Assembly (NCBI RefSeq): GCF_000832125.1
Contig: NZ_JPRK01000005.1
Location: forward strand, 434,001-498,000
Direction: 5' to 3'
From: Flavobacterium hibernum
Lineage (GTDB): Bacteria; Bacteroidota; Bacteroidia; Flavobacteriales; Flavobacteriaceae
Length of the DNA stretch: 64,000 nucleotides
The translations under genes were made by a program, and so were the position numbers. Shown here one piece after another: positions 1 through 12,463 of the stretch. Position 1 is the stretch's first letter; each line of letters begins with the position of its first letter. The notes beneath the pieces were generated by a model. That model was given only the letters and a program-made list of their open reading frames with translations, made no database searches and was not told where the DNA came from.

Positions 1-49
1 AAGAATATTGAAATAATAAAACAAGAATGATAAGTAAAGTTTTTTTCAT
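1..49 (-). CDS. start of a secreted or envelope protein (partial)
   Basis: Sixteen codons of a gene running off the left edge on the minus strand are visible. They begin with an ATG at 49 and read as a Met-Lys-Lys start followed by a run of Leu, Ile and Val, which is the beginning of a typical signal peptide. The gene begins 47 bases after the stop of the HlyD-type adaptor, in the same direction, so it probably belongs to the same export operon. An outer-membrane TolC-like protein or another secreted component would fit the place, but this is inference because nothing of the mature protein is in the window. Confidence 0.5.
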   Translation of the reverse strand, partial: MKKTLLIILVLLFQYS

Positions 50-96
50 TGGGAATAACAGTAGGTTTTTGGTTAATTATTATTTTTAGGTTTGAT

Positions 97-1392
97 TTAA
101 ACTTGTTCAAAAATACTTTTAAACTGATACAAAATTCGTTCAATTAATCGTAAATCTTCGGTAACGATTTCAGCAGTTCCTTTCATTTCCTGCTGAAATA
201 CAATTTGTTTTTTATAGGATGTTTGCAATCCGTTTGGAAGTGCAACATCCAGGAGTAAATTTCCATCTTTATCCGGAACAAGCGATATGTTTTTTATTTT
301 ACCTTTTAGGACTCCAAATTCACGATCGGGAAAATTCGCCAATCTGATATTAACAACTTGTCCAACTTTAATTTTTCCTGAATTTAGGGCTGGTGCTTTT
401 ACTTTTCCAACAAAACCTTTTTTAGTATTCGGAATAATCGAAAAAACATTATCGCCAATATTTATGGTTTGATTTTCTGTCCAAACCTGCAAAAAAGTAA
501 CCACTCCACTTACTGACGATTTTAATGCATAGGCCAATTCCCAATCTTTAATAACTTTTTTGAGCTGATAAAACGATTGTGCCATGTTGCGTCCAAGCGT
601 CACTTCTTCTTTTGTGCCACTTATTTGCGAATTCTGGCTTAATTTTGAATTATCGATCAAAGAGGACCTTAATTGCGAAATCGACGTTAAAAGCCCCTTA
701 TAACTCTTTTGAGCTTGAAGATAACTAAGTTTTTTCGCTTCCATTTCCTGCGCCGAAATAATTCCTTTATTGAATAGCGTTTCAAAACGTGCAATTTCAT
801 TTTTCTGAAGTTGTAATTCACTTTCGTTAATCACTTTTTGCTGCTGCAAAATTTCCAATCGTTCTTTGATCTGAACTTTTTCAGAATTTTGTGCTCGATT
901 TTCAACCTCAAAAGGCTGCAGGTTTTTATTTAATTGTTCTGCTTGATAATCTTTCTGAAAAACCGCAAAAGCACTTTCGATTTCTCCAAGTTGTGCGTTT
1001 TTTAGTAAAGCAAAAGGAAATGTTTTGCTAGCGTCATTGACATTGTATTCATCTACTATTTTTTTCAATAAGAAAACGTCTTTGTAATTAGCAGTATTTT
1101 CAATAATAGCAAGTGTACTATTCTCTGAAACTATAGATTTGTCTTTTACCAAAATGGCTTCGATACGACCAGATGATTTTGAAACTATTTTCTCTGGCGG
1201 AATATTGGTTGTAATTACAATTTGGGTTGTTACTACATCTGGGTATTTAATGAACCATGAGACGAAGAACAACATAAAAATAATTACAAATATCAAAACT
1301 GTCCCCCAACGTATCATCCAATGGGGCACTTTGGTAAGAATGTCCTGAACCTCTTCGCTTCTTAGTTCAATTGCAGTAGTATCTTCAGCCAT
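97..1392 (-). CDS. HlyD-family membrane fusion protein of a peptide exporter
   Basis: This 431-residue protein has the layout of the periplasmic adaptors that link a C39-type ABC exporter to an outer-membrane channel. A short cytosolic N-terminus is followed by one membrane segment at about residues 28-50. Next comes a biotinyl-lipoyl-like half-motif (around residues 60-95, with SGRIEAILVKD), then a long Gln/Glu/Lys/Leu-rich coiled coil at roughly 130-270, then the second lipoyl half and a beta-rich C-terminal part. The gene starts 3 bases after the stop of the ABC exporter gene, so the two are almost certainly co-translated. It should act in the inner membrane and periplasm. Family membership is clear; the cargo is inferred from the GG-leader peptides upstream. 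Confidence 0.9.
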   Translation of the reverse strand: MAEDTTAIELRSEEVQDILTKVPHWMIRWGTVLIFVIIFMLFFVSWFIKYPDVVTTQIVITTNIPPEKIVSKSSGRIEAILVKDKSIVSENSTLAIIENTANYKDVFLLKKIVDEYNVNDASKTFPFALLKNAQLGEIESAFAVFQKDYQAEQLNKNLQPFEVENRAQNSEKVQIKERLEILQQQKVINESELQLQKNEIARFETLFNKGIISAQEMEAKKLSYLQAQKSYKGLLTSISQLRSSLIDNSKLSQNSQISGTKEEVTLGRNMAQSFYQLKKVIKDWELAYALKSSVSGVVTFLQVWTENQTINIGDNVFSIIPNTKKGFVGKVKAPALNSGKIKVGQVVNIRLANFPDREFGVLKGKIKNISLVPDKDGNLLLDVALPNGLQTSYKKQIVFQQEMKGTAEIVTEDLRLIERILYQFKSIFEQV

Positions 1393-1395
1393 GAT

Positions 1396-3594
1396 TTAAT
1401 TTCCTAATTGTAATTGATTTTTTACCAGTTCAAAGTAATTTCCTTTTTGCTCGACTAATGTGGAATGATTGCCAATTTCGATGATTTTTCCTTTATCCAA
1501 AACTACAATTTGATCGGCATTCATAACGGTACTTAGTCGATGTGCAATAACAATTACTGTTTTGTCTTTAAAGAAAATATCTAATTTTTGCATTATTTCT
1601 TTTTCATTATTGGCATCTAAAGCCGAAGTTGCTTCATCAAAAAATAATATTTCCGGATTTTTATAAACAGCTCTTGCAATTAATAAGCGTTGTTTTTGTC
1701 CGGTGCTCATTCCAACTCCTTCAGCACCAATTTTAGTGTTGTAACCAAGCGGTAAACCACTTATATATTCTTTTATGTTGGCAACATCAGCCGCATACAC
1801 TAAACGCTCTTTATCAATTTTATCAACTCCAATGGCTATATTATTTGCAATTGTATCGCTAAAAATAAAACCTTCTTGCATTACGGCTCCAATATGAGAT
1901 CGCCAGGCTCTTTGCGAAATATTCTTTAGTTGTGTATTGCCAATAATAACTTCTCCTTTTTCAGGTTCATAAAACTTCAAAAGCAATTTCATTAAAGTGG
2001 TTTTACCGCTTCCGCTGACGCCAACTATTGCCGTTACTTTATTGGCTGGAATTTTTAGGGTTAAATTGTCTAAAACAAGAATATCTGAACCCAGATAACG
2101 ATAGGAAAGATCTTTTATATCAATATCCGATTCAAACGGAACATCGGTTGTTTGATTCTCTTCTTGTTGTGTTTCGTCTTCTTTTTCATGAATTTCAGAT
2201 AATCTTGCCAACGAAATTTTAGCATCCTGAAGTTCTCTAACAAATTCTATAAGTTGGGTAATTGGCCCATTTAAACTTCCTACGATAGAACTTATTGCCA
2301 ACATCATACCAAGGGTTATAGAACCATCGATAACTAATTTTGCCGAAAGAAAAATGATAAAAATATTCTTCAGCTCATTGATTACAGATGAACCTATGGT
2401 TTGTGTTTGTTCTAAAATTAATCCTTTTATTGAAACTCTAAAAAGCCTGGCTTGCACATACTCCCAACCCCAACGTTTTTGTTTTTCGGCATTATGAAGT
2501 TTAATTTCCTGCATTCCGTTAATAAGTTCCATTACTTTACTTTGTTCTTGCGAAACCTCAGCAAAACGCTTGTAATCTAGAACTTCTCTACGTTTTAAGA
2601 ATAAAGTTATCCATCCAAAATAAAGTATACTTCCGGCAAAAAACACAAAGAAGATCTTAAGATTAAAATAAGCCAATACTCCTCCTAAAACGAACATATT
2701 TATTACAGAGAACAATACATTTAATGACGATGTGGTTAGGATTTTTTCGATTCTTCGATGATCATTAATTCGTTGCATGATATCACCGGTCATTCGGACA
2801 TCAAAAAATGAAATAGGCAAATTCATTAATTTAATAAAGAAATCTGAGATGAGCGATATATTGATTCTGGTTGAGAGATGTAGTAAGATCCAACTTCTAA
2901 TAAGCTCTAAAGCTATTTTTCCGGCAAAAAGAAATAATTGCGCAAAAAGTATCAGGTAGATAAAATGAATATTCTGGTTTTGAATACCAACATCGACAAT
3001 ACTCTGGGTTAAGAAAGGAAAAATTAACTGCAATAAACTACTCGCTAATAAACCAATGCTAAGTTGGATCAAAAATGATTTATATTGCAATACATATTGC
3101 GACAATAACCGAAAACCTAATCCGTTATTTTCTTCTTTATCAAAATCAGACTGAAAAAACTTTGGAGAAGCTTCCATCAACAATGCAACTCCTTCCTGAG
3201 TCGAGTCATCTGCATTGTTTCCTATCCAAAATTTAAGAAAATCTTGCTTATTATATTCAATTAAACCAAAAGCAGGATCAGAAATATAATACGTATTCTT
3301 TTTGATTTTATAAAGTACTACATAATGGTTTTTATTCCAATGTAGAATACACGGCAAGGGGGCTTCTTCTAATCTGGTTATGTTTAGTTTTACTCCTAAG
3401 GTTCTAAATCCAACTTTTTCGGCTGCATCACTCAAAAAGAGTAAATTACTTCCCTCACGAGTTGTTTCGCTTATGTCTCTCAACTCCTGAATATTGATTG
3501 TTTTACCGTAATGTTTTGCTACAATTTTTAAACATGTTGGTCCACAATCCTTATAATCTGCTTGCTTGTAATTGGTGAATTTTTTCAATTTCAA
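1396..3594 (-). CDS. C39 peptidase-containing ABC exporter of double-glycine peptides
   Basis: This 732-residue protein has the three expected parts. Residues 1-140 are a C39 cysteine peptidase with catalytic Cys17 (DCGPTCL), His90 (HWNKNHYVVL) and Asp106 (SDPAFG). Residues about 165-440 are the membrane domain with about six helices. Residues about 490-732 are the ABC ATPase, with Walker A at 525-533 (GVSGSGKTT), a signature near 629 (MSTGQKQR), Walker B ending FFDEATSALD near 651-660, and the switch His near 685. Such proteins cut leaders after Gly-Gly and export the core. No ATG lies near the N-terminus: the frame is closed by a TGA a few codons upstream, and the first usable start is TTG at 3594, which places the catalytic Cys at the normal distance. 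The HlyD-type adaptor follows after 3 bases. Confidence 0.95.
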   Translation of the reverse strand: MKLKKFTNYKQADYKDCGPTCLKIVAKHYGKTINIQELRDISETTREGSNLLFLSDAAEKVGFRTLGVKLNITRLEEAPLPCILHWNKNHYVVLYKIKKNTYYISDPAFGLIEYNKQDFLKFWIGNNADDSTQEGVALLMEASPKFFQSDFDKEENNGLGFRLLSQYVLQYKSFLIQLSIGLLASSLLQLIFPFLTQSIVDVGIQNQNIHFIYLILFAQLFLFAGKIALELIRSWILLHLSTRINISLISDFFIKLMNLPISFFDVRMTGDIMQRINDHRRIEKILTTSSLNVLFSVINMFVLGGVLAYFNLKIFFVFFAGSILYFGWITLFLKRREVLDYKRFAEVSQEQSKVMELINGMQEIKLHNAEKQKRWGWEYVQARLFRVSIKGLILEQTQTIGSSVINELKNIFIIFLSAKLVIDGSITLGMMLAISSIVGSLNGPITQLIEFVRELQDAKISLARLSEIHEKEDETQQEENQTTDVPFESDIDIKDLSYRYLGSDILVLDNLTLKIPANKVTAIVGVSGSGKTTLMKLLLKFYEPEKGEVIIGNTQLKNISQRAWRSHIGAVMQEGFIFSDTIANNIAIGVDKIDKERLVYAADVANIKEYISGLPLGYNTKIGAEGVGMSTGQKQRLLIARAVYKNPEILFFDEATSALDANNEKEIMQKLDIFFKDKTVIVIAHRLSTVMNADQIVVLDKGKIIEIGNHSTLVEQKGNYFELVKNQLQLGN

Positions 3595-3641
3595 AAATTT
3601 AATTCAAGTGCAATTTAATATTATAATTCTGATATCACTAT

Positions 3642-3675
3642 AAAAAAAAACAGAGAGGAAAATTCCTCTCTGTTT
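3642..3675 (-). terminator. hairpin terminator or attenuator between peptide gene and exporter
   Basis: A 13-bp perfect inverted repeat (AAACAGAGAGGAA and its complement, 3648-3660 and 3663-3675) is followed, on the minus strand, by a run of eight or nine U. This is a good intrinsic terminator for transcripts coming from the peptide genes. It lies 48 bases before the exporter start, so the exporter needs either read-through or its own promoter. Confidence 0.75.
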
Positions 3676-3903
3676 ACTATTTAAAAGCTTTATTATTCGA
3701 AATACAATTTCTGTAGGACATGGCACTGGTTAACCCTAACCAAATAAAATCAACTCAGTGACCAATTTCCTAAAGAATCCCAACACCAATCATCAATGCG
3801 GGGAATTTGCTCAATGTTCCACGATCGAGCGCCTACAAATTAAAAAAAACATGACTAAATTCTAAAAAAGGCTATATCGTATTACTCTTAAAAAGGTTAA
3901 AAA
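3676..3903. other. intergenic stretch behind the six-Cys peptide gene
   Basis: No convincing gene is visible between the peptide stop and the hairpin. On the minus strand one frame from about 3834 to 3748 is open without a start codon and encodes a Trp- and Cys-containing stretch (including DDWCWDSLGNW). It continues past one TGA to a double stop. It could be a decayed peptide gene or chance. Confidence 0.4.
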
Positions 3904-4095
3904 TTAACAGCAAAGACGGCTTGTATCACAAATACCTGGCATAGTATTTACAGGACAAGTCCCGCCTACGGGTATTAAAACACAACCTGCTTCGATTGCA
4001 TAAACCCAACATTCAGGAATTCCTCCTTTTATTTTTTTTTGCTCACTTTTACTGATATGCTGAACATTTTCTAAATTCAAAATATTTTTCAACAT
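3904..4095 (-). CDS. six-cysteine double-glycine leader peptide precursor
   Basis: This 63-residue protein is a typical exported-peptide precursor. Residues 1-25 form a leader ending EQKKIKGG, and cutting after Gly25 would release a 38-residue core. The core has six cysteines, at 29, 38, 47, 56, 62 and 63; the first four are spaced exactly nine residues apart and the last two are adjacent. It is otherwise hydrophobic and Gly/Pro-containing with little net charge, so three disulfides are likely. The gene sits between the VKOR-thioredoxin gene and the C39 exporter on the same strand, 7 bases after a leader-like small gene. A bacteriocin or signalling peptide is the natural guess. The core matches no named family that I recognise. 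Confidence 0.8.
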   Translation of the reverse strand: MLKNILNLENVQHISKSEQKKIKGGIPECWVYAIEAGCVLIPVGGTCPVNTMPGICDTSRLCC

Positions 4096-4102
4096 ACTGA
4101 TT

Positions 4103-4237
4103 CTATTTAGTCATAATAGAAACTTCGAGTTTCTTTTTACTATTTTTCAAATCATTTAAATTAGCAAGCATACTTTTTTGTTCCTGCTCCGATAATTTTT
4201 CGATTCCTTTTATTCTTAAAATTTTTTCTAACATCAT
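4103..4237 (-). CDS. 44-residue leader-like peptide lacking Gly-Gly
   Basis: A short open frame starts with two ATG codons (4237 and 4234) and ends 7 bases before the six-Cys peptide gene. Its first 25 residues resemble that peptide's leader: MLEKILRIKGIEKLSEQEQK compares with MLKNILNLENVQHISKSEQK. Where the neighbour has Gly-Gly this one has Ala-Asn, and the rest is a Lys-rich tail without cysteines. It may be a duplicated precursor that lost its cleavage site, an accessory peptide that binds the peptidase, or a translational-coupling leader. The similarity and tight spacing support a real gene; function is unknown. Confidence 0.6.
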   Translation of the reverse strand: MMLEKILRIKGIEKLSEQEQKSMLANLNDLKNSKKKLEVSIMTK

Positions 4238-4292
4238 CTTTCGTTTTAGGGTTAATTTTTCAACTTCATTACAGACATTTAAAATCTTACTT

Positions 4293-5849
4293 TTAAGCGG
4301 TTTTTTCTAAAATCTGAACTTCTTCTACAAAATCATTCAAGAAATATTTCAACTCACTTAATTCATATTCATTTGGAAACAATCTTTCATTAACAATTTT
4401 TACTGGTGTATAATTAAAATTATTTTTAGAACACCACTCATATTGTTTTTGTATTTCTTGATTAATCATGATGCTAACATTATCAACATGCCATTTTTTT
4501 AACCATTTTTTTAATCCAATTTTCTTAATATGCCAATCTGAGATAGCTTCTACAGTTTTTCCCGGAGTTGATCTGTTAATTGTTAAAAGTCTCTCTACAA
4601 CAACTTTATAAGGATTATCAGCATTTTCTGGATTAATATTGAACAACACGCTCAAAAAAATCTTATCCGGAAATCTTAATACTAAATCAAAAGCTTCGTG
4701 AAAAGTATTGTGACAATGTTCGCAACTTGGACTTATGATAACAGAGAGCTTAACGGCTGCATTTCTATTTCCAAAATTCAAGCCTCTCAAATCTTCAAAT
4801 CCTTTTGGATAGGGAACTTTTTTAGACAAGAAATTTAATAACGAATAATTTCTTTTAAACTTTTTCATTTCCTTAAGAGAATTTTCGGTCCCTAAAACAC
4901 TTTTTATCATTGATTTTAAAACCATCCAAATAGGAACCAAAAGAACTACAGAGAATAAAAACGGAAAGATGTTCTCGAAACTAAAACTCAATGTAAACAA
5001 ATCTGAAGCAAACCATACAATGCTTTGAACGAAAATTAAAAATGAAACCATTAAACACATTACGCACCATTTTTGAATTTCAAATTTTTGAATCCAAATC
5101 GAAGACACAATTATTGGTATTGCCAATAGACTTAAGAAGCCAATGAAAATTGCCGAATCTAAGGGTTGAATTAAAATAGAAATTAAACTAGCACTGAAAA
5201 AAATCAATGGCAAATCAGGAAAACTAATCCATTTATTCTCATTTCCGTCTTTATTGTTTATAACATCACTACATGATGAAGTTGAAGTGAGATTACAGAT
5301 ATGTGAGATTATACTATTTTTGAATCCTAATTTTTCCTGAATGATAAATATACTAACTACAAATCCTAATATAGTTGTAGTTAAAAAAACAAGACTAAAT
5401 ACATTATATGTATTATAGTAAAAAGATAGACCAACAATTAATAGTAATGGCAAACCATATTTTAACCAACTGAATTCTACTTTTAAATTTTCTCTCGCAA
5501 CTACATTATTAGGTTCAATTGCTACAATAACTCCATTCCAATCTAAAAGGAATTTTTCATAAGAAAGTTTTTGACTTCCTTTTTTAATTGTATTTATACG
5601 AACGAAATTTTTTGCCTTCTCAACTAATATAAGTTCCTCTTTAAAATATGCTAAAAAATTTGATGGCAAATCTACTATTTGTTCTTTCGAAACTCTTACT
5701 GCTGCATTCTCTACAGACAACAAATCTAAAGAATCTGTTATCGCAAATAAACTTGGATAATTTGGATGAGAAAGAAACAAATCTTTAAACTCATTTTTAA
5801 TTTCCGAGTATCTGTTTATTTGGAGAAATTTTTGGACAAGTTTTAGCAT
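4293..5849 (-). CDS. C39-like / vitamin K epoxide reductase / thioredoxin-like fusion
   Basis: The ATG at 5849 is preferred over the further-upstream start at 5885, giving 518 residues. The first ~120 residues resemble a C39-peptidase fold without its catalytic Cys (NYPSLFAITDSLDLLSVENAAV and the following strand-rich part). Residues ~125-330 carry several membrane helices with the VKOR cysteines: a periplasmic-loop pair (HIC...SSC) and a CxxC in WCVMC. Residues ~345-510 are a soluble thioredoxin/DsbA-like domain with CEHC. VKOR fused to a thioredoxin-like domain makes disulfides in the periplasm of many bacteria. Placed directly upstream of a six-cysteine exported peptide, the likely job is oxidising that peptide; this last point is inference. 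Confidence 0.85.
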   Translation of the reverse strand: MLKLVQKFLQINRYSEIKNEFKDLFLSHPNYPSLFAITDSLDLLSVENAAVRVSKEQIVDLPSNFLAYFKEELILVEKAKNFVRINTIKKGSQKLSYEKFLLDWNGVIVAIEPNNVVARENLKVEFSWLKYGLPLLLIVGLSFYYNTYNVFSLVFLTTTILGFVVSIFIIQEKLGFKNSIISHICNLTSTSSCSDVINNKDGNENKWISFPDLPLIFFSASLISILIQPLDSAIFIGFLSLLAIPIIVSSIWIQKFEIQKWCVMCLMVSFLIFVQSIVWFASDLFTLSFSFENIFPFLFSVVLLVPIWMVLKSMIKSVLGTENSLKEMKKFKRNYSLLNFLSKKVPYPKGFEDLRGLNFGNRNAAVKLSVIISPSCEHCHNTFHEAFDLVLRFPDKIFLSVLFNINPENADNPYKVVVERLLTINRSTPGKTVEAISDWHIKKIGLKKWLKKWHVDNVSIMINQEIQKQYEWCSKNNFNYTPVKIVNERLFPNEYELSELKYFLNDFVEEVQILEKTA

Positions 5850-5984
5850 CTTTTTCGATCGTTTTAAATCATAATTACAATACAAATATTGCTGTTTTTA
5901 TTGTAATTAAAACGACGATAGCACACATTTTATCAATTATACTACATACAATTTATAAATTATATCAGTCTGAATTAATTAATC

Positions 5985-6007
5985 AATTTATTGATAATCA
6001 ATAAATT
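5985..6007. promoter_or_regulatory. palindrome in the divergent promoter region of the peptide locus
   Basis: A perfect 9-bp inverted repeat, AATTTATTG and CAATAAATT separated by ATAAT, lies between the divergent VKOR gene and the plus-strand peptide genes. It has no T-run, so it is more likely a regulator site than a terminator. Confidence 0.4.
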
Positions 6008-6073
6008 ATGCCTAATAATTTTCAAGCAAAACCTCCAAAACCGTAATCTCGACTAAGCGTTTTCCTTTTTGTC

Positions 6074-6081
6074 TAGTTTTG
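6074..6081 (+). promoter_or_regulatory. TAnnTTTG promoter element of the Gly-tail peptide genes
   Basis: TAGTTTTG matches the Bacteroidota -7 consensus TAnnTTTG and lies 30 bases upstream of the ATG at 6111. A clear TTG -33 box is not visible. Confidence 0.5.
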
Positions 6082-6110
6082 GTAAATCATAAACCCTAAT
6101 ACACAAAGAC

Positions 6111-6245
6111 ATGAAAATTCAAGCACTAAAATTCGAAGATTTTGAGAACGAAAAACTATCAAGAAAAGAGCAAAAAACTGTTCACGGAGGAGAAGATCTT
6201 ACTGATCCATCTATAGGACAAGGAAAAGGAGCCGGAAAGCCATAA
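6111..6245 (+). CDS. double-glycine leader peptide, Gly-rich tail, copy 1
   Basis: This is a 44-residue precursor. Residues 1-27 form a leader with the motif KFEDFENEKLSRKEQKTVHGG, and the predicted core after Gly27 is only 17 residues, ending TDPSIGQGKGAGKP. The core has no cysteine, which separates it from the minus-strand peptide. The next gene encodes a paralogue with the same leader type and the same TDPxIGxGKGxG tail. Both are divergent from the export genes and are likely cargo of the same C39 exporter, which is the only such exporter in the window. Function is unknown; candidates are an antibacterial or a signalling peptide. Confidence 0.75.
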   Translation: MKIQALKFEDFENEKLSRKEQKTVHGGEDLTDPSIGQGKGAGKP

Positions 6246-6310
6246 AGCTAAAATCGGAGCAAAAAAATTTAAAAAAAATCAAAAAATTACTAATTTAATT
6301 AAGTATAAAA

Positions 6311-6496
6311 ATGGCAAATCAGAAACTAAATTTCGTAGATTTTGAAACTGAACAACTATCAAAAAGTCAGCAAAAAAAAGTTCGTGGAGGTGATTCTCCA
6401 ATAGATCCTATAAATGCAGCAGAAGAAACTGGTAGAATATTACTAGAAACACCTCCTACAGATCCAGCTATTGGTACTGGTAAAGGAATGGGTTAA
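6311..6496 (+). CDS. double-glycine leader peptide, Gly-rich tail, copy 2
   Basis: This is a 61-residue precursor with leader motif NFVDFETEQLSKSQQKKVRGG ending at Gly27, followed by a 34-residue core. The core ends TDPAIGTGKGMG, nearly the same as copy 1, and in front of this has an extra acidic segment (DSPIDPINAAEETG) containing a second, weaker S/T-P-I-D-P element. It has no cysteine. The gene lies 65 bases after copy 1 and reads in the same direction, so the two probably share a transcript. The conserved tail with variable middle suggests that the tail is the functional or recognised part. Confidence 0.75.
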   Translation: MANQKLNFVDFETEQLSKSQQKKVRGGDSPIDPINAAEETGRILLETPPTDPAIGTGKGMG

Positions 6497-6526
6497 TTAA
6501 AAACCACAATCATTAAATCATAAATC

Positions 6527-6595
6527 AATTTCGAAGATTTTGAAATATAAAATTATCTCAAAATCGACGACTTAAACGGACAGAAAAAGCATTAA
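6527..6595 (+). pseudogene. decayed third GG-leader peptide copy
   Basis: In the frame starting at 6527 the DNA encodes NFEDFE, the same leader block as the two intact copies, then a TAA. The same frame continues with KIDDLNGQKKH, which resembles the end of a leader. The alignment to copy 2 is largely gap-free at DNA level over about 45 bases. There is no start codon and no Gly-Gly or Gly-rich tail, so this is a remnant. Confidence 0.55.
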
Positions 6596-6627
6596 AATTA
6601 ATTTTATCTAAAATACTCATTTTTAAA

Positions 6628-8391
6628 TTAAATATTATTCGCAAATTGAGCTGGAGATACTCCAGTTCTTTTGCGAAATGATTTAGCAAATGAAACTGCA
6701 TTTTTAAAACCAACGCTTTCCGCAATGGCTTGAGTAGAGTATTTTCGATACATATGATTGGTAATCATTTCGTTGATTACATAATTAATTTTAAGCTCGT
6801 TCGAATATTCACCAAAAGATTTACCAAATCTTTTGTTAACTACATACGACAAATAGGTCGTGTTTGTTTTTATTTTTTTTGCAACATAAGGCAAAGTAAA
6901 ATCAGCATTTAGATATTCGTGTTTGCTTTCGAGCGCCAGTAATTTTTCTACTATTTTGTTCTCTTTAGCTTCATCAATACTCAAATTGACGTTTTCTTTC
7001 TTAAGTTGAATTTCTTCGGGTTCAAAAACAACTTCTTCTTGCTCGTGTTCCTGTTCGATTGTTTCAACTTGACTTTTCTTTTCTAAATTGGCCTTGAATT
7101 CTTCAATTAAGGCATTCATCTTTTTATGTGCCTTATTTTTATCTCTTATATTTTTAATCAACAAAAATACAATGGCAACAAATAAAACGACATAAAAAAC
7201 TTTTAAGGCTTTATTCAAGAAAACATCATATTTGTATTTTTCCTGAATAGAAAGCATTTCATCCGTTAAACCTCCTACTCCAAGTTTATAGTTTACTTCT
7301 AAAACCTGATCATTTAATTTTGCCTCAGATTTTTCATAATTATCCAAATAAATTTTAGAATGTTTATAGGCTAAATCAGGTTCTTTTAGAATATTATAAA
7401 TTTTTGCCTGGTAATAATTTGACTTTAAATAATCGACTTCATTAGTTTTTGTTATAGCACTAATTGAGTCCGTTTTTTTAAAAAATACTAATGCTTTATC
7501 GTATTTTTTTGTGGTGTAATATATGTCTCCTAAATTGTAATTTGCCAAGCATACCATATCAGGCATTTTATTTTGATCTGCCAAGAATATTATATCATAA
7601 TATGTTTTTTCTGCTTTAACATAATCTTTTTTCCAACTGTAAATGTTACCCAAACTTAACTTGGCAACGATTTTATTATCGGCAAAATTTTTAGAATAAC
7701 TAATTGTCTTATTATAAAAATATTCAGATGAATCCAGCAGAGTTCTTTCCTTAAGATTTTTTACATAATAATTCTCATAGGCACCTGCTAAACTAAGGTT
7801 GATGTTACTTTTAGTATTTAAAAATTGTTCTTTAGTATAAACACTTTCATTCTTATCGACAAACTCATCAAGTTGTCTTAAATTTTTAATCGCTAATCTA
7901 TAATTACCAACTGCATTATTTATGGATGAAATGTTTGTTTTAAATTTAACAATTTGAACAATATCTCTAATTTCCATAGAGAGTTTCATTCCTTCCTGAT
8001 AGTTTTCTAAAGCTTTACTAAAATTGCCCCGTTTCCATTCTCCCAATCCACCATAATTATATAAATAAGATTTGATCTCTGTTTTTTCTCTGGATTCTGG
8101 CATTTTATTCAAGTACTTAAATGCCAACTGATAACTTTCTTTAGATTTTGCTGAATTTCCTTTTAATTGATTCAAATAAGATAGCGCTCCCTCGGCAAAA
8201 GCAAGATGCTTAAAATTGTCTGATTTTGCCATTTTATTAGCATATACAACAGCACTATCGACATTTACATTAATATTTAGTCGAATTTTGTTCTGCAATA
8301 ATAAATACTCCTGTTCTGTTAATGCTTTCTTCTCTTGAGAAACAACATTATTCAGAACAAAAAAGAGTAAAAAAGAGATGATCAGCCTCAT
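6628..8391 (-). CDS. membrane TPR protein with C-terminal AraC-type DNA-binding domain
   Basis: This 587-residue protein has an N-terminal signal segment (residues 1-18), then a long helical region with tetratricopeptide-like repeats to about residue 375, one membrane helix near 395-413 (VFYVVLFVAIVFLLI), a Glu-rich linker and a C-terminal AraC helix-turn-helix domain from about 490 (KTNTTYLSYVVNKRFGKSF and IAESVGFKNAVSFAKSFRKR). This arrangement is a known Bacteroidota regulator type, with a periplasmic TPR sensor and a cytosolic DNA-binding end. It converges on the Gly-tail peptide genes and is close to the exporter, so it may sense or control the peptide system. That link rests on position only. 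Confidence 0.85.
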   Translation of the reverse strand: MRLIISFLLFFVLNNVVSQEKKALTEQEYLLLQNKIRLNINVNVDSAVVYANKMAKSDNFKHLAFAEGALSYLNQLKGNSAKSKESYQLAFKYLNKMPESREKTEIKSYLYNYGGLGEWKRGNFSKALENYQEGMKLSMEIRDIVQIVKFKTNISSINNAVGNYRLAIKNLRQLDEFVDKNESVYTKEQFLNTKSNINLSLAGAYENYYVKNLKERTLLDSSEYFYNKTISYSKNFADNKIVAKLSLGNIYSWKKDYVKAEKTYYDIIFLADQNKMPDMVCLANYNLGDIYYTTKKYDKALVFFKKTDSISAITKTNEVDYLKSNYYQAKIYNILKEPDLAYKHSKIYLDNYEKSEAKLNDQVLEVNYKLGVGGLTDEMLSIQEKYKYDVFLNKALKVFYVVLFVAIVFLLIKNIRDKNKAHKKMNALIEEFKANLEKKSQVETIEQEHEQEEVVFEPEEIQLKKENVNLSIDEAKENKIVEKLLALESKHEYLNADFTLPYVAKKIKTNTTYLSYVVNKRFGKSFGEYSNELKINYVINEMITNHMYRKYSTQAIAESVGFKNAVSFAKSFRKRTGVSPAQFANNI

Positions 8392-8411
8392 TCATTTTGT
8401 TTTAGGAATCT

Positions 8412-8419
8412 CAAAAATA
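8412..8419 (-). promoter_or_regulatory. TAnnTTTG promoter element of the TPR-AraC gene
   Basis: On the minus strand TATTTTTG matches TAnnTTTG, 20 bases upstream of the ATG at 8391. Confidence 0.5.
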
Positions 8420-8529
8420 GCTTTTAAATTTTCAATAAACTAAAATTAATTTATGTTTATACTATTTTTCTTCTTTATAAAATAGAAAAATATAACAATT
8501 TTATATTCTTTTGTTATATTTTTATTATG

Positions 8530-8537
8530 TAAATTTG
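8530..8537 (+). promoter_or_regulatory. TAnnTTTG promoter element of the acyl-CoA dehydrogenase gene
   Basis: TAAATTTG matches the consensus, 21 bases upstream of the ATG at 8559. A TTG at 8511-8513 may be the -33 box, although the spacer is short. Confidence 0.6.
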
Positions 8538-8558
8538 TTTTAGTAAAACTATCAAAAA

Positions 8559-9737
8559 ATGAAACCAGATTTATTTCAAGCTCCAGATTATTACAACCTT
8601 GACGATTTATTGACAGACGAACACAAACTTGTTCGCGAATCAGCACGTGCATGGGTCAAAAGAGAAGTTTCTCCTATTATTGAAGAATATGCTCAAAAAG
8701 CAGAATTCCCAAAACAAATTATTAAAGGACTTGGCGAAATTGGTGGTTTCGGACCTTATATTCCAGTAGAATATGGAGGTGCTGGCTTAGACCAAATTTC
8801 TTATGGTTTAATCATGCAGGAAATAGAACGTGGTGATTCTGGTGTAAGATCTACTTCATCTGTACAATCTTCATTAGTAATGTATCCCATTTGGAAATAT
8901 GGAAATGAAGAACAACGAATGAAATACTTACCAAAACTGGCAACAGGAGAATTTATGGGCTGTTTTGGTTTGACAGAACCAGATCATGGCTCTGATCCAG
9001 GAAGTATGATTACAAATTTTAAAGATATGGGCGATCATTATCTTTTAAATGGTGCAAAAATGTGGATTTCGAATGCTCCATTTGCCGATATTGCTGTTGT
9101 TTGGGCAAAAGATGAAATTGGAAGAATTCACGGATTAATTGTAGAACGCGGAATGAAAGGTTTTACAACACCGGAAACACATAATAAATGGTCGCTTCGT
9201 GCATCATCAACCGGAGAATTAATTTTTGATAATGTAAAGGTTCCTAAAGAAAATCTATTGCCAAATAAATCTGGTTTAGGTGCGCCACTTGGTTGTTTAG
9301 ATTCAGCTCGATACGGAATTGCATGGGGAGCAATTGGTGCAGCTATGGACTGCTACGATACGGCATTGCGTTATGCTAAAGAAAGAATTCAGTTTGGAAA
9401 ACCAATTGCCGGAACTCAGCTTCAACAGAAAAAACTGGCAGAAATGATTACCGAAATTACAAAAGCGCAATTACTTACTTGGCGTTTGGGTGTTTTAAGA
9501 AACGAAGGAAAAGCTACAACAGCTCAAATCTCAATGGCAAAACGCAACAATGTTGACATGGCTATTCATATTGCTCGTGAAGCCAGACAAATGTTGGGCG
9601 GAATGGGAATTACTGGCGAATATTCGATTATGAGACACATGATGAACCTTGAAAGTGTGATTACTTATGAAGGAACTCATGATATACACTTATTGATAAC
9701 GGGGATGGATGTAACTGGAATTCCAGCGTTTAAATAG
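8559..9737 (+). CDS. acyl-CoA dehydrogenase, glutaryl-CoA dehydrogenase type
   Basis: This 392-residue flavoenzyme has the three-part acyl-CoA dehydrogenase fold. The flavin-binding motif CFGLTEPDHGSDPG is in the middle domain, and the catalytic base is Glu371 in TYEGTHDIHLL near the C-terminus. The segment RSTSSVQSSLVMYPI and the TEPDHGSDP form are those of glutaryl-CoA dehydrogenase, which oxidises and decarboxylates glutaryl-CoA to crotonyl-CoA in lysine and tryptophan breakdown. Another short-chain substrate remains possible. It stands alone, with its own promoter and a hairpin terminator behind it, and no other lysine-degradation gene is nearby. Confidence 0.88.
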   Translation: MKPDLFQAPDYYNLDDLLTDEHKLVRESARAWVKREVSPIIEEYAQKAEFPKQIIKGLGEIGGFGPYIPVEYGGAGLDQISYGLIMQEIERGDSGVRSTSSVQSSLVMYPIWKYGNEEQRMKYLPKLATGEFMGCFGLTEPDHGSDPGSMITNFKDMGDHYLLNGAKMWISNAPFADIAVVWAKDEIGRIHGLIVERGMKGFTTPETHNKWSLRASSTGELIFDNVKVPKENLLPNKSGLGAPLGCLDSARYGIAWGAIGAAMDCYDTALRYAKERIQFGKPIAGTQLQQKKLAEMITEITKAQLLTWRLGVLRNEGKATTAQISMAKRNNVDMAIHIAREARQMLGGMGITGEYSIMRHMMNLESVITYEGTHDIHLLITGMDVTGIPAFK

Positions 9738-9773
9738 TAGACAACTATTAAATTATATATAAAAACAATTATC

Positions 9774-9801
9774 AAAAGCTTCTTCTTACGGAGAAGCTTT
9801 T
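9774..9801 (+). terminator. intrinsic terminator behind the acyl-CoA dehydrogenase gene
   Basis: A 10-bp perfect stem, AAAAGCTTCT and AGAAGCTTTT, encloses an 8-base loop and ends in T residues. It abuts the promoter element of the next gene. Confidence 0.75.
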
Positions 9802-9809
9802 TATCTTTG
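9802..9809 (+). promoter_or_regulatory. TAnnTTTG promoter element of the DUF3050 gene
   Basis: TATCTTTG matches the consensus, 17 bases upstream of the ATG at 9827, immediately after the terminator stem. Confidence 0.6.
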
Positions 9810-9826
9810 CACAAAAATTACAGAAA

Positions 9827-10609
9827 ATGAATATTGAAACTATCAACAATAGCATTCAACCTCAAAAAGATCAACTTTTAAAGCATTCTTTATATAATAA
9901 AATCCAAAATATTGATGATTTACATATTTTCTTAGAAAGCCATATTTTTGCTGTTTGGGATTTTATGTCATTATTAAAAGCTTTACAAGCAAAACTTACT
10001 TGTACTACAACACCTTGGTTTGCTACCAAAAATCCTGAAACAAGATATTTAATTAATGAAATTGTTCTTGCCGAAGAAACTGACTTAAGTATTGATGGAA
10101 GAAGACTAAGTCATTACGAAATGTACATTGAAGCAATGGAAGATTGTGGCGCTAACACAGCTGGAATCAATACATTTTTAGCAGAAGTAAATTCTCTTCA
10201 TAATATTTTTGTTGCTATTAAACAAAGTTCTTTACATCCTGATGTAAAAGCCTTTTTAGATTTTACTTTTAGAGTAATCGAACAAGGAAAGCCTCATGAA
10301 ATTGCAGCCGCTTTTACTTTTGGAAGAGAAGATTTAATTCCGAGTATGTTTACGGCGATCTTAAAAAACTTTCAAAAAAATCTTCCGGAAATTGATTTGA
10401 GCAAATTGCTTTATTATTTTGAAAGACATATTGAACTTGATGCCGATGAACACGGTCCAATGGCAATGCAAATGATTACAGATTTATGCGAAGATGATGC
10501 TCAAAAATGGAAAGAAGTTGAAGAAATTTCAATTCTGGCATTAGAAAAACGAATTGGACTATGGAACGCCATTGAAGAAGAAATCGTGATGAAAGCAGAA
10601 ATGGTCTAA
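9827..10609 (+). CDS. DUF3050 (heme-oxygenase-like fold) protein
   Basis: This 260-residue soluble protein has no signal peptide. It is all-helical with conserved His/Glu-containing motifs: HIFAVWDFM near residue 39, EIVLAEETD near 80, and HIELDADEHGP near 205. These are the usual landmarks of DUF3050 proteins, which are related to the heme-oxygenase-like superfamily, some of whose members are di-metal oxidases. The spaced Glu and His residues would fit a metal site, but its activity is not known. It has its own promoter and no clear partner genes. Confidence 0.8.
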   Translation: MNIETINNSIQPQKDQLLKHSLYNKIQNIDDLHIFLESHIFAVWDFMSLLKALQAKLTCTTTPWFATKNPETRYLINEIVLAEETDLSIDGRRLSHYEMYIEAMEDCGANTAGINTFLAEVNSLHNIFVAIKQSSLHPDVKAFLDFTFRVIEQGKPHEIAAAFTFGREDLIPSMFTAILKNFQKNLPEIDLSKLLYYFERHIELDADEHGPMAMQMITDLCEDDAQKWKEVEEISILALEKRIGLWNAIEEEIVMKAEMV

Positions 10610-10676
10610 AATCCAAAACAAGTTATTTAACGTAACTATTTGTTTAAAATGATTCGAAAATTAATTTATCTAAATT

Positions 10677-11444
10677 ATGAAACCGCATTTCAAACAAATA
10701 GTTATTGTTATACTTTCTATATTCCTGTTAAGCTGTAGTTCTGATGACTCAGCTTCAAAAACTCCTGTTACTCCAATATTACCCGTTACTCCACCTGCAA
10801 CTCAGGTTCCCACTACTCCAATTAACAATTCGATAAAATACTTGGCTTTAGGCGATAGTTATACTATTGGACAGAGTGTTTGCGAAACTTGCCGCTTTCC
10901 CGAACAGTTAAAATCGAATTTAAAAGCAATTTATCCTCAAACTGATTTTTCATTAAAAATAATTGCTACAACTGGCTGGACAACTTCGAACCTTATATCG
11001 GCCATAAACACACAAAATCCAGATTCTAATTACGATTTAGTTACGCTTTTAATTGGTGTAAACAATCAATTCCAACGCATGGATTTTTCAGTTTATCAAA
11101 AGGAATTTCCAGAACTACTTACTAAAGCAATATCCTTAGCCAAAGGCGATAAGAAAAATGTAATCGTACTTTCGATTCCTGACTATGCTTACACTCCATT
11201 TGCAGCAAATTACTCTGAGGCAAACCGCATGAAAATTTCTAACGAACTAGATCAATACAACACGTTTGCAGAGAATACATGTATAAATAAAGGTGTAGTT
11301 TTTATTTCGATTACAGATATTACGCGTCAAGGTCTTAGCAATAGCAATTTAGTAGCTTCAGATGGGCTACACCCTTCTGAATTGGCTTATAAAATGTTTA
11401 TTGGTCGCATATTTCCTCAAGTAAAAATGATTTTGCAGGATTAA
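10677..11444 (+). CDS. SGNH/GDSL-family hydrolase lipoprotein
   Basis: The 255-residue product begins with a lipoprotein signal (LLSCSS, lipid-bearing Cys about residue 20), then a Pro/Thr-rich spacer to about residue 55. The catalytic domain follows, with block I ALGDSYTIG (nucleophile Ser), a later GVNNQ block (Asn) and the C-terminal DGLHPS block with Asp and His. These are the SGNH esterase or lipase residues. It should sit on the outer face of an envelope membrane. The substrate cannot be told from sequence. The stop overlaps by 4 bases with the stop of the convergent membrane protein gene. Confidence 0.88.
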   Translation: MKPHFKQIVIVILSIFLLSCSSDDSASKTPVTPILPVTPPATQVPTTPINNSIKYLALGDSYTIGQSVCETCRFPEQLKSNLKAIYPQTDFSLKIIATTGWTTSNLISAINTQNPDSNYDLVTLLIGVNNQFQRMDFSVYQKEFPELLTKAISLAKGDKKNVIVLSIPDYAYTPFAANYSEANRMKISNELDQYNTFAENTCINKGVVFISITDITRQGLSNSNLVASDGLHPSELAYKMFIGRIFPQVKMILQD

Positions 11445-12463
11445 GCTTTTTTAGATTTCCAGATAAATCCGTCGAGTAAATAATGAGTAAATTGTGGAAC
11501 ACTAAGTAATGGAACAATTAAAAATTGCCATGAAGAAAAATCAAAAGCTGTAACGGAGAAATTTTCATTCCAAACCAAAATTTCCCATAAAAATTCTTCA
11601 GTAAAAGCGATTCCTATTAAAATCAAAACATAAATAAAAATTGCATTGTAACTTTTTAGATAACTAAAAACTCCCGATTTCTGATTAGTTTTATTTTCGA
11701 TTTCTCTAAAATAAACCAACGCCATATATGGGATTCCGTGGGAAACTACATTTAACAAAGTAAAAATAAGATCGTCATTAAAATACGCGATTCCAAAATA
11801 CCATGAAAGTGCCGTTCCTAAAATTATGGCATTTTTAGGAATATTAACAAACTTATTATTTATGCTTTTGTAAACAGTGTAAACCACATAGATAGTCATA
11901 ATTACAACATAAACCCAAAACAGTACTTCTAACAAAAATGCACTTTGAAAACGAAAAAACTCATTTTCGACAAACCAATTGAATTTTCTTTTTGACGACA
12001 AAAACCAATACAACATTGGATAACCTGTTGAAGCATAAATAGCAAGATTATCAATAGCGACAGACAATCTCGTTTTTTGTTCGTTTCTGGCGTACAATCG
12101 CATAAAACCATATTGTTGTCTTATAAAATGAAAAACTGCTACGTAAGCCAAAAAAGACCAGAAAAACAAACTCCCAAAAGAAAACAGAATAATCCCAATA
12201 GCGAAACAAATTGTAGGCAAAAGCAATAATTTTTTTTTATTCTTTTTAAATTCCTCTGCCACGAAATAGGTTTTGAATAAAGTCGCATAAACGTGTGCAA
12301 CATCAATAAAAACTATTAGGAAAAGCCACGTATAAAACGAGTATTTATTTTCAATTTCAGTAATATAATCCTGAAACAAAAATACAATTGCCAACACAAA
12401 AAAGGATGGACCAATGATGAAAATTAAATCTGTCTTGGCTTTATGAATCCAGGGTTGTTTCAT
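11441..12463 (-). CDS. multi-pass membrane protein of unknown function
   Basis: The 340-residue product has about eight to nine hydrophobic helices and aromatic-rich loops (for example FHFIRQQYGFMRLYARNE). I recognise no named family. It is the last gene of the polyamine cluster and overlaps the end of the flavoprotein gene by 23 bases, so the two are translationally coupled and probably work in the same membrane process. The scattered His residues in helices (HVYATL, FHFIRQQ, SHGIPYM) could bind metal or heme; this is a guess. Confidence 0.75.
   Translation of the reverse strand: MKQPWIHKAKTDLIFIIGPSFFVLAIVFLFQDYITEIENKYSFYTWLFLIVFIDVAHVYATLFKTYFVAEEFKKNKKKLLLLPTICFAIGIILFSFGSLFFWSFLAYVAVFHFIRQQYGFMRLYARNEQKTRLSVAIDNLAIYASTGYPMLYWFLSSKRKFNWFVENEFFRFQSAFLLEVLFWVYVVIMTIYVVYTVYKSINNKFVNIPKNAIILGTALSWYFGIAYFNDDLIFTLLNVVSHGIPYMALVYFREIENKTNQKSGVFSYLKSYNAIFIYVLILIGIAFTEEFLWEILVWNENFSVTAFDFSSWQFLIVPLLSVPQFTHYLLDGFIWKSKKA

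Follow-up and report, generated by a model that had tools for sequence, protein, structure and literature searches.

A predicted peptide-export locus

The stretch of DNA analysed here, hereafter called the window, comprises 64,000 nucleotides of Flavobacterium hibernum (assembly GCF_000832125.1, contig NZ_JPRK01000005.1, positions 434,001 to 498,000 of the forward strand), and its left end carries a predicted locus for the export of peptides with Gly-Gly (GG) leaders. Read from the right, the minus strand encodes a C39-like/VKOR/thioredoxin (Trx) fusion, a leader-type open reading frame (ORF) that lacks the GG, a six-Cys precursor, a hairpin, a C39 exporter, and an HlyD adaptor. Two Cys-free GG peptides, referred to below as the plus peptides, are encoded on the plus strand, facing a regulator that joins tetratricopeptide repeats (TPR), a transmembrane (TM) helix, and an AraC-type helix-turn-helix (HTH) (Table 1). 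All of the genes named in a preliminary description of this DNA are present in the window sequence as ORFs and Pfam domains; the end that it gave, 6600, is too short, as the feature reaches 8391. The gene layout is syntenic across many Flavobacterium species. A typical locus consists of an acyl-CoA dehydrogenase neighbour, HlyD, exporter, Cys-rich GG peptides, VKOR fusion, plus peptides, and regulator, and a scan with the regulator finds its relatives in Flavobacterium.

Table 1. Features of the peptide-export locus (window coordinates)
Feature	Position	Strand	Evidence
HlyD-family membrane-fusion adaptor	97..1392	-	PF13437, E 1.4e-11
C39 peptidase-containing ABC exporter, TTG start	1396..3594	-	PF03412, E 9.6e-35; ABC_membrane; ABC_tran
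Intrinsic-terminator-like hairpin, between exporter and peptide genes	3648..3675	-	12-pair stem and T run
Six-Cys GG-leader precursor; 25-aa leader, 38-aa core IPECW...LCC	3904..4095	-	
Leader-type ORF without GG	4103..4237	-	One tblastn match each in L086 and L088
C39-like/VKOR/thioredoxin (CEHC) fusion	4293..5885	-	PF07884, E 4.4e-10
Candidate operator, direct repeat CATTTTATCAATTATA / CAATTTATAAATTATA, period 23	5926..5964	.	
Plus-array promoter region: TCTCGACTAA block and Bacteroidota-type -7 box TAGTTTTG (6074-6081)	6047..6081	+	Conserved
Cys-free GG-leader peptide 1, core EDLTDPSIGQGKGAGKP, candidate pheromone precursor	6111..6245	+	
Cys-free GG-leader peptide 2, core end TDPAIGTGKGMG	6311..6496	+	
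Remnant of a third plus leader, NFEDFEI then stop	~6527..6595	+	By eye
TPR-TM-AraC regulator, convergent with the plus peptides	6628..8391	-	PF12833, E 1.4e-12; TPR
Acyl-CoA dehydrogenase, flanking marker outside the system	8559..9737	+	72/73 loci, L230 without

Pairing of the regulator with the plus peptides

A search of the genus covered 150 genomes, the source genome included. The regulator was found in 36 of them (E <= 1e-30, one a fragment) and the VKOR fusion in 45 (E <= 1e-15). Matches to the plus peptides occur in 40 genomes at E <= 0.1, weak and core-only matches counted, and any match to the six-Cys peptide at that threshold in 42, many of these to the leader only. Most of the counts given below refer to a set of 73 loci, which were returned by a scan of named genomes with the regulator as the only query; individual loci and genomes carry L and G handles.

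The preliminary description had made its case depend on both peptide kinds occurring together with a C39 exporter in relatives, and this is what is seen. A convergent GG-type peptide lies at the 3' side of the regulator in all 73 loci; a script found 71 of these, and in L232 and L234 the peptide was located by eye. The VKOR fusion, exporter, and adaptor are all present within the fetched DNA of 61, with several of the others stopping at a contig end, and a Cys-rich peptide gene is present in 60, recognised either by script or because it matches that of the window at 60% or more (44 by match).

A hidden Markov model (HMM) of the plus peptide was built from 40 members of this set, one per locus, together with the two peptides of the window (n = 42). 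It recovers the peptide in 31 of the 33 loci outside its build set, and the two that it misses, L228 and L230, are caught by a pattern search. In a separate group of 38 regulator loci, for which all small ORFs were scored, a plus-strand hit is obtained in 35; of the other three, L107 is cut off by the end of its stretch, and the peptides of L098 and L102 were picked up by other means. Two negative sets give no hit: 21 VKOR loci that lack a close regulator, in 7 of which nothing but minus-strand Cys peptides is seen, and 30 other AraC loci of the source genome (the best-scoring 30 of 53 matches). A looser pattern gives one match among these 30, seemingly a regulator ORF. The count of 35/38 is not an independent one, because the loci from which the HMM was built overlap those genomes; the negative sets are independent.

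Loci of irregular composition give the same picture. L097, which has the VKOR fusion, exporter, and Cys peptides and no regulator, shows no plus peptide. L104 has the regulator and plus peptide without VKOR or exporter in 15 kb, and L103 has the regulator/peptide pair and Cys peptides without an exporter in 15 kb. In L093 and L096, the regulator occurs twice at separate places, with a peptide belonging to each copy, and in L232 a second peptide adjoins a regulator fragment. An order-wide search of 296 genomes, from which 11 near-full-length regulator matches were fetched (L133-L143, 2 previously seen; further G336 matches were left out), finds the convergent peptide in 11/11 and, outside the genus, only distant TPR-AraC proteins.

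Thus, in loci found by way of the regulator, the plus peptide and the regulator are a constant unit and the Cys-rich cargo turns over, since the plus peptide is present in 73/73 and the Cys-rich peptide is absent or GG-less in some. Of the original proposal that a single exporter serves two kinds of cargo, the co-occurrence with the exporter has held up; the plus peptides, however, go with the regulator rather than with the exporter, and consequently a signal for the regulator is a better reading of them than another cargo of similar kind.

Peptides of other kinds were seen beside related proteins. GG peptides of other types lie beside some distant TPR-AraC genes (L145, L147, L150, L153, L154, L158), and those adjacent in L145, L154, and L158 hint at a wider family of such pairs. 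In addition, orphan Cys-free GG peptides with an RKGKVA(A) tail adjoin a TPR-TM-histidine kinase-receiver hybrid in every one of the 6 genomes where they match strongly, with 7 copies (L126, L127, L128, L129, L131, and L270 of G108). The hybrid itself is present in 95 of the 150 genomes, often seemingly without a peptide, so that this pairing is one-way. A script reported a GG peptide in none of 20 kinase neighbourhoods, a count that is not clean because the script missed the L270 copy, which is held there in frame.

Leaders, cores, and tails

It was originally stated that the two peptide kinds are unrelated. Their leaders are in fact akin: the final 12 residues of both follow [LI]S..[EQ]QK.[IV].GG, and a consensus of 42 plus and 33 Cys peptides indicates that the two leader families diverge only in their N-terminal halves and in the cores. 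Leaders of C39-exported GG peptides have hydrophobic residues at -4 and -12, E or Q near -8, and a short core. Both families follow this pattern, and the GG is invariant in both alignments, whose members were picked among GG-bearing peptides. Shared final residues preceded by different sequence would fit a single protease with different docking partners.

The search against leader profiles that had been proposed at the outset did return weak matches, but no peptide of the window reaches a curated cut-off. For TIGR04149/PF14406, the scores are 17.3 and 14.4 bits (16.9 and 13.1 in a separate scan), with 25 required. For NF047798 (leader_Chryseo), peptide 1 scores 22.5 of 23.5 bits and peptide 2 is unmatched.

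The plus peptides of the window are free of Cys and have tails in common (TDPSIGQGKGAG / TDPAIGTGKGMG). Loci carry from 1 to 8 copies in tandem. Among 177 plus cores, the mean GRAVY is -1.37, with 23% Gly, 13% Pro, and a mean charge of -1.9, a predicted chemistry that is unlike that of membrane-active peptides. When the tail is counted from the last DP-type motif onward, tails of one locus resemble each other (mean distance 0.15, 163 pairs), which is not true of the N-terminal portions of those cores (0.59, 162 pairs). Tails of different loci diverge, with a distance of 0.60 overall and 0.29 in 25 comparisons of close species. Because the likeness within a locus does not extend to the upstream portions of the core, the comparison points to the tail as the functional part; a role as signal is not implied by this alone.

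A direct repeat upstream of the plus peptides

When 26 intergenic regions between the VKOR gene and the plus array are aligned, a block of 40 bp stands out as near-invariant. The plus array is also preceded by a TAGTTTTG box, which reads TAGCTTTG in three cases and which we take to belong to the Bacteroidota -7 class with the consensus TAnnTTTG. Distant loci resolve the block into a direct repeat, in which CAATTTATAAATTATA occurs twice at 22-23 bp. For scoring, the repeat was treated as two 16-mers (32 positions), and 70 of the 71 script-found loci had the necessary 300 bp or more upstream. The repeat is present upstream of the plus peptides with at most 4 mismatches of 32 in 69/70, and its period is 23 in 69/70. 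The repeat unit was derived from close loci that overlap the 73-locus set; the independent test is therefore provided by 13 distant pairs, in 9 of which the repeat is found at 5 mismatches or fewer, in one case only on the other strand. It is absent from all 22 control regions upstream of VKOR genes without a close regulator, each of which gives at least 8 mismatches, and in the source genome the block is matched once at 3 mismatches or fewer.

A direct repeat with a spacing of about two helical turns suits a dimer of the AraC family. The constancy of the repeat likewise suits a near-invariant HTH, and the repeat is a candidate operator. An Rfam scan gave 3 weak hits, all below the gathering score, and thus no known RNA element is indicated in the conserved block. 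Sigma-70 promoters, likewise scanned for, were not in clear excess (45 observed, 41.1 expected, sd 5.8).

Structure and variation of the regulator

The regulator has a hydrophobic helix at about residues 396-416 and a C-terminal AraC HTH. Because basic residues follow the TM helix, a positive-inside reading makes the HTH cytoplasmic and the TPR part presumably periplasmic. A structural model (pLDDT 80.8, pTM 0.58) consists of a run of paired helices and the HTH, with a long helix spanning the presumed membrane segment. Among the fold matches in the PDB, peptide-bound LGN TPR domains come first, with Rap proteins, some of them carrying pheromones, from rank 25 onward; these matches are weak evidence, since TPR folds generally match each other.

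The two halves of the protein differ in conservation. Over 26 loci, the mean pairwise identity is 0.63 for the TPR part versus 0.96 for the HTH, with 0.80 for VKOR (26 loci), 0.87 for HlyD (22), 0.89 for the exporter (24), and 0.98 for the acyl-CoA dehydrogenase (26). The regulator alignment comprised 42 of the 73 loci and the window.

Covariation of the plus-peptide core with the TPR part was considered as a decisive test of a ligand and its receptor. The sample of 68 entries was made up of the 73 loci and the window without L232 and L234 (plus peptide missed by script), L192 and L198 (VKOR outside the fetched DNA), L230 (no acyl-CoA dehydrogenase in the fetched DNA), and L214 (shortened frame). 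Given the VKOR and species distances, core distance covaries with that of the TPR part (partial Mantel r 0.151, 2/999 permutations; in 26 loci, r 0.18, 46/2000) and not with that of VKOR (r -0.011, 68 loci). The leader covaries with the TPR part more strongly than the core does (0.291, 0/999). The test is not decisive, as the covariation fails a linkage control set out below.

Exporter, VKOR fusion, and Cys-rich cargo

The C39 site of the exporter is legible as KDCGPTC, HYVV, and DP, which we take to supply the Cys, His, and Asp. Under a looser rule, applied without a control, 37 of 56 relatives have a hairpin within the 600 nt that precede the exporter, and a -7 box at this place is not conserved (TAnnTTTG in 11/56). 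The true start of the VKOR fusion is probably the ATG at 5849, because many relatives align only from residue 7-10. The C39-like domain of the fusion matches Peptidase_C39 below the cut-off and only from profile position 46 on; as judged from the translation and a paralogue alignment, no catalytic Cys is available in it, residues 4-190 being free of Cys. Such a degenerate domain may dock the leader. The adjoining ORF without GG resembles, by eye, a family MLEKIL.....L..EQKN.. at the equivalent place in relatives, and is apparently decayed.

Among the other genomes searched, 23 encode the six-Cys peptide at 70-87% identity over its length. By script, a locus holds from 0 to 18 Cys-rich GG peptides, and the 101 Cys-rich cores that the script collected in the 73-locus set comprise 12 with two Cys, 70 with four, and 19 with six; the script misses most of the conserved six-Cys copies, whose leader has I at -12. 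Thirteen loci lack a Cys-rich GG peptide. Eleven of these were read by hand, and 9 keep a gene of the Cys-leader type beside VKOR that has lost the second or both Gly (L173, L174, L176, L178, L180, L181, L182, L195, L213). In all of these but L195, the GG-less peptide persists as a two-Cys gene. In the six-Cys family with IP[ED]CW, 4 of 43 copies are without GG, a single Gly remaining in L204, L207, and L221 and AK being present in L209.

Several loci depart from the usual cargo. In L091, 15 Cys-rich GG peptides lie between exporter and VKOR (6653-11358 in window orientation), two of them with an identical core, so that this one genome holds a large and diversified array. The insert between exporter and VKOR in L180 holds a GG peptide and long ORFs, one of them ATP-grasp-like by eye, and is possibly a graspetide cluster. 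The source genome has a second C39/HlyD/VKOR-Trx locus (L005, 5002-13858; C5, about 300-309 kb) with four six-Cys GG peptides and, by script, neither regulator nor plus peptide; it also holds two genes of DUF6734 and DUF6625, possibly for a modified bacteriocin. Finally, L130 (G103 C1:1708000-1723000) has eleven consecutive GG peptides with three Cys each and a common SGPY.SWC.GC-like motif, and the exporter of the window is unmatched there within 15 kb.

A model for the locus and its alternatives

Gene content, synteny, the constant pairing of regulator and peptide, the regulator-linked direct repeat, and the domain make-up are directly observed. From these we infer that both peptide kinds leave by one exporter, that one of them is a signal, that it is bound as a ligand and leads to activation, and that the other is antibacterial. 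The locus would then be a bacteriocin locus that regulates itself through a peptide pheromone of its own, which we hold to be slightly more probable than the contrary. In this model, the GG leader of the plus peptides would be cut by the C39 exporter and the peptides exported with HlyD; the signal would be their Gly/Pro/Asp-rich tail, and its receptor the TPR-TM-AraC protein next to them, whose TPR superhelix would bind it in the periplasm. The cytoplasmic HTH would then bind the direct repeat that lies where the plus array and the VKOR-Cys-peptide operon diverge, activating both. The Cys-rich peptides would be bacteriocin-like effectors leaving via the same exporter, their disulfides set by the VKOR-Trx fusion, whose C39-like domain may serve for leader docking. 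That a single exporter would serve both kinds is suggested by the common leader register and the synteny.

Several observations weigh against this model. It does not explain why 2-3 tandem regulator-like ORFs lie beside a single plus peptide in 8/73 loci. The GG is replaced in L234 (GS), in the second pair of L093 (GK), and in L095 (CG). A convincing repeat is lacking in L091, L092, L103, and L104 (8-9 mismatches, the level of shuffled sequence). L144, with a shortened regulator whose HTH part is 52% identical, has no convergent GG peptide in 3.4 kb. L108, counted as regulator-less, has two distant regulators (29%), one of which faces a Cys-containing plus-strand peptide with a leader ending in AG that is not scored by the HMM. 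No route for uptake across the outer membrane was identified, and no immunity gene was recognised in the locus. Furthermore, the covariation of core and TPR part drops to r 0.087 (65/999) given TPR third positions, and covariation with the core is also seen at silent HTH sites (0.156, 4/999). Given these linkage controls, array and regulator look co-inherited as a cassette, and co-evolution of ligand and receptor is not demonstrated. The median dN/dS of the TPR part, 0.060, equals that of VKOR, 0.058 (HTH, 0.005), and thus there is no sign of diversifying selection; nor are variable TPR sites concentrated in the helices of the concave face (0.65 vs 0.67).

GG-leader peptides beside C39 exporters are often bacteriocins, and the plus peptides might themselves be antibacterial, or the cargo of a two-component bacteriocin, with the TPR-AraC protein answering another envelope signal. 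Their leaders do match the NCBIfam 'bacteriocin-like protein' NF047798 weakly, at E <= 0.1 in 21/42 members, their Cys-rich neighbours are bacteriocin-like, and the loci with several regulators per peptide need no receptor-ligand pair. The cores, however, are short, very hydrophilic, and rich in Gly, Asp, and Pro, and the peptides follow the regulator rather than the exporter, retaining the GG in the 9 loci where the VKOR-side peptide has lost it. We consider antibacterial plus peptides unlikely.

Two other explanations are less probable still. The plus peptides might act inside the producer and not as a signal between cells, for instance by inhibiting, chaperoning, or giving immunity to the exporter or, in the periplasm, the TPR protein. 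The constant pairing with a membrane protein would fit such a local partner as well as it fits a pheromone, and an immunity gene, otherwise unrecognised, would be supplied. Yet tails that vary with the species and are alike within a locus are more usual for signals, and tandem copies suggest dose, so that action within the producer appears decidedly improbable. The chances are slightly poorer again that the peptides are substrates of an unlinked maturase, a radical SAM (rSAM) enzyme or one for another ribosomally synthesised and post-translationally modified peptide (RiPP), whose product is a natural product. Matches at E <= 0.1 to TIGR04149 ('rSAM-modified RiPP', 28/42 members) and PF14406 (17/42) speak for this, but they lie mostly in the leader, and with 17.3 and 14.4 bits where 25 are required, neither window peptide reaches the curated threshold. 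In addition, no maturase was recognised by eye among the ORFs of window positions 1-12000 and 10 kb leftward, which were read without a gene-by-gene family scan.

If the signalling model is correct, the receptor, a ligand family, a candidate operator, and the output are contained in one 8-kb locus, which would show how one GG exporter carries both signal and weapon and would offer many natural pairs of ligand and receptor. The TPR-TM histidine-kinase hybrid beside a Cys-free GG peptide, seen in 6 genomes, would be a second receptor type. The locus is also present in a strain of Flavobacterium johnsoniae (L197), a species with established genetics, and therefore the question is directly testable.

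Comparison with known systems

Peptide pheromone signalling is textbook knowledge in Gram-positive bacteria; to our knowledge, no case has been demonstrated in Bacteroidota. The open-access literature searched yielded no report on a TPR-AraC/GG-peptide pair or on demonstrated peptide pheromones in this phylum. The wider proposal is that Flavobacterium practises peptide quorum sensing with a new class of receptor, in which a one-component transmembrane TPR-AraC protein reads species-specific Gly-rich pheromones; by virtue of a common GG leader, these would leave through the C39 machine that also exports the disulfide bacteriocins controlled by that protein. This proposal is tentative, its chance falling somewhat short of even.

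The RRNPP receptors (Rap, Rgg, PlcR) likewise have a TPR superhelix, short-peptide binding is proposed here too, and Rap is among the fold matches. These receptors are cytoplasmic, have an N-terminal HTH and no TM segment, and require import of the peptide; Rgg, for example, is a cytoplasmic TPR protein, and its SHP is distinct from GG cargo. The regulator described here does not have this architecture, possessing a TM helix and a C-terminal AraC HTH instead.

The pneumococcal rtg locus (RtgR/RtgS, RtgAB) likewise has a regulator, a peptidase-containing exporter, and co-regulated GG peptides, but there an Rgg/SHP-like pair regulates, whereas here the sensor is membrane-bound and the proposed ligand is itself a GG peptide (PMC7018657). 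In the streptococcal blp and com systems (BlpAB/BlpC, ComAB/ComC), a peptidase-ABC exporter and a GG pheromone are found beside GG bacteriocins, which are under pheromone control. These systems are Gram-positive and use a histidine kinase and response regulator, unlike the one-component transmembrane TPR-AraC protein of a Gram-negative bacterium (PMC5295010).

Closer in phylogeny are the bacteroidetocins of Bacteroidales (class IIf), also from Bacteroidota, which likewise combine a peptidase-ABC exporter, a Cys-containing GG peptide, and a thiol oxidoreductase; bacteroidetocins A and B have four Cys, and the family at least two (PMC6671954). The locus agrees with class IIf in this combination, including the minimum of two Cys in the GG peptide; its leader, however, has 25 aa, compared with 15-16 in bacteroidetocins, whose antibacterial activity is demonstrated (PMC6671954), whereas here such activity is a prediction. 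In addition, the locus has a VKOR-Trx protein with a C39-like domain, a Cys-free peptide family, and the TPR-AraC regulator. A 2023 survey of Bacteroidales RiPP clusters also describes C39 exporters with GG precursors, reports TPR genes in two clusters, and mentions pheromone binding by such domains; the clusters are defined by maturases, and the pair of TPR-AraC protein and Cys-free peptide is not described in the passages of that survey considered here (PMC10352776). Taken together, the GG leaders and the Cys-rich half of the locus are of known kinds, while the unit of sensor and peptide looks new, the type of receptor being its newest part.

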